The notes under the pieces are model-generated. The model searched no databases and was not told the origin of the DNA. It worked only from the letters and a program-made list of their open reading frames with translations. Both the position numbers and the translations under genes were made by a program. 64,000 bases of DNA from an uncultured Acetatifactor sp. (GTDB taxonomy: Bacteria > Bacillota > Clostridia > Lachnospirales > Lachnospiraceae), in assembly GCA_947631615.1 (NCBI GenBank), contig CANRLX010000004.1:23658-87657 (forward strand). Reading direction: 5' to 3'. Of the stretch, positions 39,802 through 43,712 are shown one piece after another; the first letter of the stretch is position 1; every line of letters starts with the position of its first letter.

Positions 39802-39993
39802 TTACGCCTCCTCGATGGCCTTCATCAGCGCGTCGATGTCAATCCCGTGCACCGCGGCCGCCTCCTCCAGAGACTCCGCCTGAGATGCGGGGCATCCCAG
39901 ACAGTGCATTCCGGCATCCAACAGGATGGGAACCACATTGGGGTTTGCGTTCAGGATCTCTCCGATCGTCATATCCTTGGTTATTCCGCTCAT
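39802..39993 (-). CDS. DUF1858 domain-containing protein
   Basis: [45 protein letters not shown]. Confidence 0.9.
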
Positions 39994-40214
39994 TTCGTTT
40001 CTCCTTTCCACCTATATGCCACATGCCACGCCCTGTCCCAAACGGACAAAACGCCACTCTTTTTCTTACCAGCCTAGTATAATACATTCCCGAAAATCTG
40101 ACAAGCTATTCTTCCCATAAAATAATTATAAAAAAATTCGTAAAAATTTTGAAAACTTTTTGTAAACACTTGGAAATACTGTGTTTTGTATAGAAAAAAG
40201 TACACGTTTCCACC

Positions 40215-40312: not shown

Positions 40313-42352
40313 ATGAGAGACGAATGGAAAGATTTTGTACCCGGCAAATGGGACAAAGAAGTCAATGTCCGTGACTTCATCCAGAGAAACTATCATCCCT
40401 ACGACGGCGATGAGAGCTTCTTGGCAGGACCTACCCAGAACACCAAGGATCTGTGGGCACAGGTTCTGGATCTGCAGAAGCAGGAGAGAGAGGCCGGCGG
40501 TGTGCTTGACATGGACACCAAGGTGATTTCCACGATCACTTCCCACGGTCCCGGCTATCTGGACAAGAGCAAGGAGACCATCGTAGGTTTCCAGACCGAC
40601 AAGCCTTTCAAGCGTTCTCTTCAGCCTTACGGCGGTATTCGTATGGCAGAGAAGGCTTGCGCAGACAACGGCTACGAAGTGGACCCCGAGGTGAGCGAGT
40701 TCTTCACCATCCACAGAAAGACCCACAATGCAGGCTGCTTCGACGCATACACTCCTGAGATCAGAGCTTGCCGTTCTTCTCATATCATCACCGGTCTGCC
40801 GGATGCTTACGGCCGCGGACGTATCATTGGCGACTACCGCCGTGTGGCCCTGTACGGTATCGACAGACTGATCGAGGACAAAGAGGATCAGAAGGCTTCC
40901 ACCGGCCGCGTAATGACCGACGATGTGATCCGTCTCCGCGAGGAGCTGTCCGAGCAGATGACCGCACTGAAGATGATGAAAGAGATGGCTGCTTCTTACG
41001 GTTTTGATATTTCCAAGCCCGCTCAGAACGTTCAGGAAGCTATCCAGTGGACCTACTTCGGATACCTGTGCTCTGTAAAGGAGCAGAACGGTGCCGCAAT
41101 GTCCCTTGGACGTACCTCCACCTTCCTGGATATCTACGCAGAGAGAGACCTGGCAAACGGCACCTTCACCGAGGAGCAGATCCAAGAGTTCGTGGATCAC
41201 TTCATCATGAAGCTGCGCTGCGTAAAGTTTGCACGTACTCCCGAGTACAACCAGATCTTTGCCGGCGATCCCGTTTGGGTTACCGAGTCTCTGGGCGGTG
41301 TCGGCATCGACGGACGTCACATGGTTTCCAAGATGAGCTTCCGCTATCTGCACACCCTGGAGAACCTGGGCGCTTCTCCCGAGCCCAACCTGACCGTTCT
41401 CTGGTCCACCAGACTTCCTGAGAATTGGAAGAAGTACTGCGCAAAGATCTCCATCACCACTTCCTCCATCCAGTACGAGAACGACGATCTGATGAGAGTG
41501 GTTCACGGCGACGACTACGGTATCGCATGCTGCGTATCCTCCATGGTTATCGGTAAGGAAATGCAGTTCTTCGGCGCCCGCGCTAACGTGGCTAAGTGCC
41601 TGCTGTACGCTTTGAACGGCGGTATCGACGAGGTTACCAAGAAGCAGGTTGGTCCCAAGTACCGTCCTGTTGAGGGCGATGTCCTGGATTATGACGATGT
41701 ATACTCCAAGTTTATCGACATGCTGGAGTGGCAGGCAGACGTTTATGTAAACGCCCTGAACATCATCCACTATATGCACGACAAGTACTGCTATGAGAGA
41801 GCAGAGATGGCTCTTCATGACAGAGACGTTAAGCGCTACTTCGCTACCGGCGTTGCAGGTCTGTCCATCGTTGCAGACTCCCTCTCCGCTATCAAGTACG
41901 CTAAGGTTGAGGTTGTACGTGATGAGGACGGCGTGATCGTTGACTTCAAGACCACCGGCGACTTCCCGAAGTACGGCAACGATGACGACCGTGTTGACGA
42001 GATCGCTCAGGATGTGGTTCACAAGTTCATGACCGCTGTCAGAAGACACCACACCTACAGAAACGGTATTCCTACCACCTCCATCCTGACCATTACCTCC
42101 AACGTAACCTACGGTAAGGCTACCGGTAATACTCCCGATGGACGTAAGAAGGGCCAGCCTTTCGCTCCTGGCGCTAACCCGATGCACGGCCGCGATACTC
42201 ATGGTGCGGTAGCATCTCTGTCCTCCGTATCCAAGCTGCCTTTCAACGATGCACAGGACGGTATCTCCAATACCTTCACTATCATCCCCGGCGCTCTCGG
42301 AAAAGAGGATCAGGTATTTGCCGGAGATATCGAGCTGGATCTGAACAAATAA
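40313..42352 (+). CDS. pflB: Formate C-acetyltransferase (pyruvate formate-lyase), catalytic part lacking the glycyl-radical C-terminus
   Basis: [11 protein letters not shown] active-site Cys pair; ends ...[20 protein letters not shown] with no RVSGYAV motif. Confidence 0.95.
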
Positions 42353-42373
42353 GTTTAAGAGGAGGAATACACG

Positions 42374-42574
42374 ATGGACGAGAAGACAATGATTGACGAC
42401 CTTGTAAAGATGCTGGATTCCGGCATGACGAACGGCGTCGGCCACGTAAATGTCGACACGGAGGCAGGTAAGCAGTCAAAGAACGTTCAGACAATGGGCT
42501 GCACGGATTGTTCCAGAACACCGTTGGCCTGCAGTGTACCCACTCTTCACGAAGGCTTAGACGATTATCAATAA
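42374..42574 (+). CDS. 66-aa Cys-rich protein, N-terminus similar to the PFL radical-domain N-terminus
   Basis: RBS gaggagg; [66 protein letters not shown]. Confidence 0.8.
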
Positions 42575-42599: not shown

Positions 42600-42845
42600 A
42601 TGGCAGAAGCAAATGCAACACAGGTAAACAACCTGGTAAACTTATTGGATGGTTACGCAACCAAGGGCGGCCATCACCTGAACGTAAACGTTCTGAACAG
42701 AGATACTCTTCTGGACGCTCAGAAGCATCCTGAAAACTATCCGCAGCTTACTATCCGCGTATCCGGATATGCGGTAAACTTCATCAAGCTGACTCCTGAA
42801 CAGCAGGCAGACGTTATCTCCCGTACTTTCCACGAGAGCGTTTAA
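42600..42845 (+). CDS. Stand-alone glycyl-radical domain (GrcA-like / C-terminal domain of PFL)
   Basis: RBS taggaggaaaa; [72 protein letters not shown]. Confidence 0.95.
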
Positions 42846-42874: not shown

Positions 42875-42907
42875 AAACCCAGGAGGATTTTTCCTTCTGG
42901 GTTTTTT
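42875..42907 (+). terminator. Intrinsic terminator/attenuator between the glycyl-radical gene and pflA
   Basis: aaacccaggagg...ccttctgggtttttt. Confidence 0.75.
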
Positions 42908-42944: not shown

Positions 42945-43712
42945 ATGCAAGGCAGAATACACTCTCTGGAAAGCTTTGGCACGGTGGACGGCCCCGGCAC
43001 ACGCTTCGTGGTGTTCGTACAGGGCTGCCCCATGAGATGCGCCTACTGCCATAATCCGGACACCTGGGAGATGAACGGCGGCACGCTGATGGAGCCCGCC
43101 GAGATCATTGAGCAGTATGAACGCAACGTGAGCTTTTACAAGGACGGCGGGATCACGGTCACCGGAGGCGAGCCTCTGATGCAGATTGATTTTTTGATCG
43201 ACCTGTTCACCCAGGCAAAGCAAAAGAATATCCACACCTGCATCGATACCTCCGGCATCGCTTTCAATCCGGACAACGCTCCGCTGATGGAAAAAATGGA
43301 CAAGCTGATGACCCTGACCAACCTTGTGATGCTTGACATCAAGCACATTGACCCCGAGAAGCACAAGGATCTGACCTCACAGCCCAACGAGAATATCCTG
43401 AAATTTGCCGCCTATCTGAATGAAAAAAATGTGGACATGTGGATACGGCATGTGATCGTGCCGGGTATCACGGACGATGACAAATATCTCTTCGAGCTGG
43501 GCTACTTTATCGGCCAATTCCACAATCTGAAGGCGTTGGACGCTCTGCCCTACCATACCATGGGAAAGCCAAAGTATGAGAAGCTGGGCATGAAATACCG
43601 GCTGGAGGGCGTAGAAGCTCTGAACAAGGATGTTCTCTTAAAGAAAAAGGCGGTTATTCTGGACGGGATCCGCAAGAGGCGCGCCGAGATGGAAGCCTCT
43701 CGGCAGGAATAA
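42945..43712 (+). CDS. pflA: Pyruvate formate-lyase-activating enzyme (radical SAM)
   Basis: GTVDGPGTRFVVFVQGCPMRCAYCHNPDTW, CX3CX2C. Confidence 0.96.
   Translation: MQGRIHSLESFGTVDGPGTRFVVFVQGCPMRCAYCHNPDTWEMNGGTLMEPAEIIEQYERNVSFYKDGGITVTGGEPLMQIDFLIDLFTQAKQKNIHTCIDTSGIAFNPDNAPLMEKMDKLMTLTNLVMLDIKHIDPEKHKDLTSQPNENILKFAAYLNEKNVDMWIRHVIVPGITDDDKYLFELGYFIGQFHNLKALDALPYHTMGKPKYEKLGMKYRLEGVEALNKDVLLKKKAVILDGIRKRRAEMEASRQE

Follow-up and report, generated by a model that had tools for sequence, protein, structure and literature searches.

A conserved small protein encoded in a split pyruvate formate-lyase operon and the two-cysteine tail it appears to supply in trans

Introduction

Pyruvate formate-lyase (PFL) is a central and very oxygen-sensitive enzyme of gut fermentation. 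In the GrcA3 and YfiD proteins (GrcA; NF038360, TIGR04365), whose gene lies beside that of PFL, an N-terminal helix and an HxNV strand dock the radical domain on the enzyme. Split PFL with a separate GrcA3 already has a curated NCBI family, and in the open-licence literature we found no account of split PFL, of GrcA3 or of the small protein described below. For the E. coli enzyme, docking of the spare part YfiD is governed by residues 696-733, an overlapping PFL segment that persists once the radical loop is gone; this is the recognition element, without which YfiD binding is undetectable and activation is 32-fold lower (PMC8683613). Among other glycyl radical enzymes, BssB, BssC and HpdC are small cysteine-containing accessory proteins that bind a [4Fe-4S] cluster in a HiPIP-like fold.

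The locus studied here lies in the window, by which we mean the whole stretch of 64,000 nucleotides analysed, from an uncultured Acetatifactor sp. It contains a gene for a 66-amino-acid protein that has the docking helix and HxNV strand of the GrcA3 type; unlike GrcA3 or YfiD, it lacks the glycyl-radical loop (RVSGYAV) and the C-terminal helix, and carries a dithiol tail instead. The E. coli element acts in cis and has no such tail, whereas the 66-residue protein is the product of a separate gene and ends in one. Its nearest counterparts are the cysteine tails of other split cores, which hold the same position in the system and show a dithiol motif in many lineages (..ACSTPTLFEGLD), but are fused to PflB and have no docking segment. 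In contrast to BssB, BssC and HpdC, to which it has no sequence similarity, it has two conserved cysteines.

Results

A 66-residue gene between the two parts of a split PFL

The operon and the parts of the small protein are laid out as follows.

40313..42352, plus strand: pflB core of a split PFL, 679 residues (TIGR01255, 1092 bits, residues 5-668)
42360..42365, plus strand: AGGAGG ribosome-binding site of the 66-residue gene, read from the sequence
42374..42574, plus strand: 66-residue protein, detached (trans) dithiol tail (open reading frame, family, dN/dS 0.137)
42383..42457, plus strand: docking segment, residues 4-28 (homology to GrcA3 residues 6-30 and E. coli PFL ~681-712)
42458..42496, plus strand: acidic, variable linker, residues 29-41 (length differs among relatives; dN/dS 0.31 for residues 31-41)
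42497..42565, plus strand: dithiol tail, residues 42-64 (dN/dS 0.063)
42500-42502, 42509-42511 and 42530-42532, plus strand: codons of tail cysteines C43 (non-conserved), C46 and C53 (both conserved)
42600..42845, plus strand: separate glycyl-radical domain of the grcA3 type, 81 residues (NF038360, 159 bits, cut-off 158)
42765-42767, plus strand: radical glycine G56 of that domain
42875..42904, plus strand: terminator-like hairpin AAACCCAG..CTGGGTTT with a T run, 3' of grcA3, found by eye
42945..43712, plus strand: pflA, the PFL-activating radical SAM enzyme (TIGR02493, 293 bits)

The open reading frame encodes the 66-residue product that an earlier note on this DNA had read there, behind its own AGGAGG, and its neighbours are those the note had named: a PFL core without the glycyl loop and an 81-residue radical domain. 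Gaps of 21 nt (core stop to 66-residue start) and 25 nt (66-residue end to radical-domain start) separate the three genes. The core, aligned with E. coli PFL 10-681, ends in GDIELDLNK followed by the stop codon, with neither a cysteine tail nor a glycyl-radical loop. The hairpin is absent from the list of the terminator scan, its loop exceeding the length that the scan allows. Divergent from pflB and just upstream of its promoter region, on the minus strand at 39802-40011, lies a small DUF1858 protein of the hybrid-cluster-protein-associated redox disulfide family.

The gene belongs to a conserved family

The 66-residue frame is a real gene of a conserved, previously undescribed protein family. 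Of 299 genomes sampled from the same taxonomic family, 77 have a relative, and a scan of GTDB genomes returned 431; the closest are in Acetatifactor and other Lachnospiraceae, and one relative, L087, belongs to the cultured species Acetatifactor muris. A few other families of the same class also have members (L191, L193, L194 and L195), and none was found outside the class in a sample of the phylum. PDB searches returned no solved structure containing the protein.

Where the earlier note had named a dN/dS near 1 as speaking against its proposal, we find purifying selection: the pooled value is 0.137 for the whole protein, versus 0.090 for the adjacent GrcA3, with 0.132 in the docking part, 0.31 in the linker and 0.063 in the C-terminal motif.

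At almost every locus the gene sits between the end of the core and grcA3, in line with the expected synteny with split pflB. A separate GrcA3, the mark of a split PFL, was detected in 76 of the 77 carriers versus 38 of the 222 non-carriers (p 8e-41), and the genome of the lone remaining carrier is 67% complete. The gap between core stop and grcA3 measures 216-508 nt in operons with the gene versus 23-180 nt in split operons without it. At locus L193 the order is core, grcA3, small protein; in no other operon seen does the small gene follow grcA3.

The N-terminus resembles that of the radical domain

The earlier note had derived the N-terminus of the protein from that of the radical domain, and every test applied shows that the two are truly homologous. 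A Smith-Waterman alignment scores 52, a score met by none of 5000 permutations; profile-profile alignment (hhalign) of the family with GrcA3 gives a probability of 96% and an E value of 2.9e-9 over residues 3-32; and the best of 100 column shuffles reaches 15, versus 49 for the real alignment. A profile of the 66-residue family (A1) also matches the equivalent segment in full-length PFLs of other Clostridia.

In E. coli PFL numbering the segment spans approximately 681-712 and covers the helix NLAGLMDGYF with the strand HLNVNV; the split core stops just before it. Such a core has no counterpart of E. coli 696-733, and part of that element has a homologue in the 66-residue protein, supplied in trans. 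Against NF038360 it scores 14 bits, over residues 4-28 only and below the curated cut-off of 158 bits. The glycyl-radical motif RVSGYAV is absent from the frame and from its aligned relatives, as the earlier note had seen for the window protein. A simple origin of the gene would be the joining of a copied radical-domain N-terminus to the core's own tail.

Two cysteines of the tail are conserved

In the family alignment C53 is invariant and C46 is more than 90% conserved; C43 is often lost and His59 is not conserved. The motif profile (A7) has four invariant columns, C7, A13, C14 and P17, corresponding to C46, A52, C53 and P56. All of the 145 distinct members have at least two tail cysteines. 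They are spaced C-x6-C in 136 members, and spacings of x2, x5, x7, x8 and x9 are also seen. A dithiol tail was defined by at least two cysteines in an acidic C-terminal tail with an AC-x-x-P[TN]-like motif; in the window protein these are C46, C53 and ACSVPT.

The CxxC plus third cysteine of the earlier note is thus there to be read in the frame (C43, C46 and C53), but the conserved pair is C46 and C53, and the first cysteine of the CxxC is the one often lost. The metal or Fe-S site proposed at that CxxC found no support: neither this cysteine nor the histidine is conserved and the spacing of the pair is variable, so that a pair of thiols fits better than a fixed metal site.

Two members, L156 and L158, terminate straight after the first CxxC (GCTDCAK and GCTTCSQ, each followed by the stop codon); AC-x-VPT is missing and two cysteines are kept. 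Three further candidates were rejected. A CDGSH-like or zinc site (Cys3His) would need C43 and His59, which are not conserved; the in-frame TGA of L030 and L193 is an ordinary stop and not selenocysteine; and a mixed disulfide with GrcA3 is ruled out by the absence of cysteine from the window GrcA3.

The tail is found in cis or in trans

In genomes without the 66-residue gene, the motif profile matches the C-terminal end of PflB, immediately before grcA3. Such cores end in dithiol tails, for example ..DCSNGACSTPTLFEGLD, DLDCSNGACSTPTLFEGLDNDEE, DIDRIEECGNQACNIPNIMESIDNE and ELEPDCACCEPNANLDEE, and at least two tail cysteines are present on the core in 36 of the 38 split genomes of the family sample that lack the gene. 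This cis tail had no place in the earlier note's picture, which is incomplete to that extent. Split cores accompanied by the gene have tails without a cysteine pair in all tested carrier genomes, the window core among them. In the set used for the tree, the pair occurs on the core in 0 of 93 carriers versus 43 of 45 non-carriers (Fisher p 9e-34). The corresponding stretch of unsplit PFLs has no cysteine in 8 of 8 cases. A solved formate acetyltransferase, PDB chain 38lb_A, has a tail ..ALGKSGNVMFGECDMCEMKELD.. with a CxxC (aligned letters only), and appears from its sequence to be a naturally split core with a CxxC tail.

One exception, genome G130, combines a core tail free of cysteine with the gene order core-pflA-grcA3. 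Since the rule holds elsewhere and this core lacks the cysteines, the genome was forecast to hold an unlinked copy of the small protein; a relaxed search found it, MPTPEELMESIDRLMSQGVGHINVV..ECENSPVPMACGVPTVFVEGEE (also ..LECENSPVPMACGVPT..), on another contig. Of three further genomes with an unlinked copy, G297 and G002 lack cysteine in the core tail, and the tail of G282 contains one cysteine but no pair. Neither a cis nor a trans tail was found in G288 (97% complete) and G448 (82% complete).

Altogether, it is very probable that one and the same dithiol tail is carried in cis on the core or in trans on the 66-residue protein, and that the two forms are functionally equivalent. The cis tail, fused to the core, has no docking segment. 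Because the cis form needs the tail alone, the tail is probably the working part, and the docking segment would stand in for covalent attachment.

Split PFLs have switched between the two states

A tree of PFL cores places the split ones together in a single clade (SH-aLRT 99), within which cis and trans forms are interspersed. With three states, the best tree requires 16 changes, at least 5 of them on supported branches; most cis/trans changes sit on weakly supported branches, and of 15 contrasts 5 fall on branches that are starred. Since this count labels the cis state by the number of cysteines, contrasts based on gene presence are the fair test: with gene presence alone as the trait, the 5 supported independent contrasts run as the rule predicts (4.9 of 5 on average). 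Within the split clade the state has changed between cis and trans several times.

Proposed function and alternatives

The cis/trans tail suggests that split PFL, an oxygen-sensitive enzyme, has a safety or assembly device not described before. Judging from the homology of its N-terminus, the 66-residue protein probably docks on PflB. For the fuller proposal, that it is a detached two-cysteine tail which docks in the empty radical slot and guards the core, we would put the chances at even; that the thiols themselves act as guard or placeholder falls slightly short of that.

The steps would be these. The protein would supply the dithiol tail in trans on its copied N-terminal docking segment. 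When GrcA3 is absent, it would sit in the core's radical-domain slot, the site of E. coli PFL 681-712, and bring its pair of thiols near the catalytic cysteines C406-C407 of the window core, which are then exposed. The thiols would keep the core reduced and loadable, and the empty, activatable core would be protected from oxidation or proteolysis until a fresh GrcA3 takes its place there and PflA activates it. The small protein would compete with GrcA3 and be displaced by it. Both the docking in the slot and the competition are suggested by homology; the earlier note's broad notion that another part fills the radical-domain site is supported to the same extent. AlphaFold2 predictions had a mean pLDDT of 41 for core plus 66-residue protein (window read-through) and 47 for core, 66-residue protein and GrcA3 (L094), from shallow, near-identical alignments; these values are too low to bear on docking. 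The cis tail may coexist with GrcA3 in the same enzyme, so the data do not require a role confined to the empty state. Half-site occupancy, with GrcA3 in one slot and the 66-residue protein in the other, was set aside; the half-site reactivity of PFL is itself disputed (PMC12338860).

The distance from the strand asparagine to the last cysteine is 26-36 residues (median 28), and in GrcA3 the same asparagine lies 28 residues from the radical glycine. A stronger version of the guarding role, which we consider rather doubtful, is a built-in thiol plug: once the radical domain has gone, the dithiol tail, in cis or on the 66-residue protein, would enter the active-site opening instead of the glycyl loop, with the invariant cysteine at the position of the radical glycine, and pair with or reduce the catalytic cysteines. 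If this is true, PFL would be a modular enzyme that swaps a radical cartridge for a safety cartridge.

An unlikely but best-surviving alternative is an assembly or activation factor: the 66-residue protein would provide in trans the recognition element that the core lacks (E. coli 696-733), recruiting GrcA3 and PflA to the core and improving installation of the glycyl radical, the thiols serving only for stability. Its segment does copy part of that element, and the closest match to core plus GrcA3, E. coli tPFL (1-695) with N-terminally truncated YfiD, is poorly activated (2.7 versus 15.9 µM radical; PMC8683613). However, it is the dithiol tail that is most constrained (dN/dS 0.063 versus 0.132 in the docking part), and the cis form retains this tail only.

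Still less likely is an inhibitor or radical quencher that replaces GrcA3 and shuts PFL off, or whose thiols donate hydrogen atoms to the glycyl or thiyl radical in a safe shut-down before oxygen cleaves the chain. The common docking segment would imply competition with GrcA3, and the invariant cysteine lies ~27 residues from the strand where the radical glycine lies 28; but the spread of the asparagine-cysteine distance over 26-36 residues, the placement of the gene in the same operon as its target and the cis tail, which would be a permanent inhibitor, all weigh against this reading.

We regard as very improbable a metal- or Fe-S-binding accessory subunit of the small type found in benzylsuccinate synthase or 4-hydroxyphenylacetate decarboxylase. 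Glycyl radical enzymes do have small cysteine-containing partners, and BSS-beta regulates thiyl radical formation (PMC12590467). Yet where a HiPIP-like fold of the BssB/BssC and HpdC type has four cysteine ligands, the 66-residue protein has just two conserved cysteines, at spacings of x2, x5, x6, x7, x8 and x9, with C43 and His59 not conserved; Pfam and PDB searches gave no match, nor was there a profile match to known Fe-S proteins. Finally, a function unrelated to PFL (a regulator or modified peptide hitch-hiking in the operon) would suit the few unlinked copies that adjoin proBA, MoxR-like and other genes, but is hardly credible given the association with split PFL (p 8e-41) and the finding of unlinked copies where the core lacks a cysteine tail.

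The small protein gives split PFL a third, obligate-looking component, and the cis/trans dithiol rule lends itself to tests on small purified proteins. Both bear on how the empty active site is shielded in a glycyl radical enzyme that can lose its radical domain, and on the way in which a core fit for repair is recognised by a spare radical domain.

Second GrcA3 genes and related small proteins

A second split GrcA3 is present in 20 of 76 carriers versus 1 of 38 split genomes without the 66-residue gene (p 0.0016, relatedness not corrected for). The 15 second GrcA3 loci that were inspected (L219-L233) are all stand-alone, and the radical domain therefore looks like an exchangeable part in carrier organisms. 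Several of these genes stand beside apparent genes for CRP-type regulators, thioredoxin, rubrerythrin and desulfoferrodoxin (names assigned by eye); they are likely spare radical domains for oxidative stress.

Paralogous small proteins with a docking-like N-terminus and another conserved tail, HHGRCDVGS[PA][FW]..G, are encoded at L274:969-1163, L273:1396-1605 and L277:1256-1477 (minus strand); their partner is perhaps another glycyl radical enzyme. At L275:1293-1577, upstream of an AAA-type ATPase gene, a further small protein combines a docking-like N-terminus with the tail SHECCNMYGRPAS.
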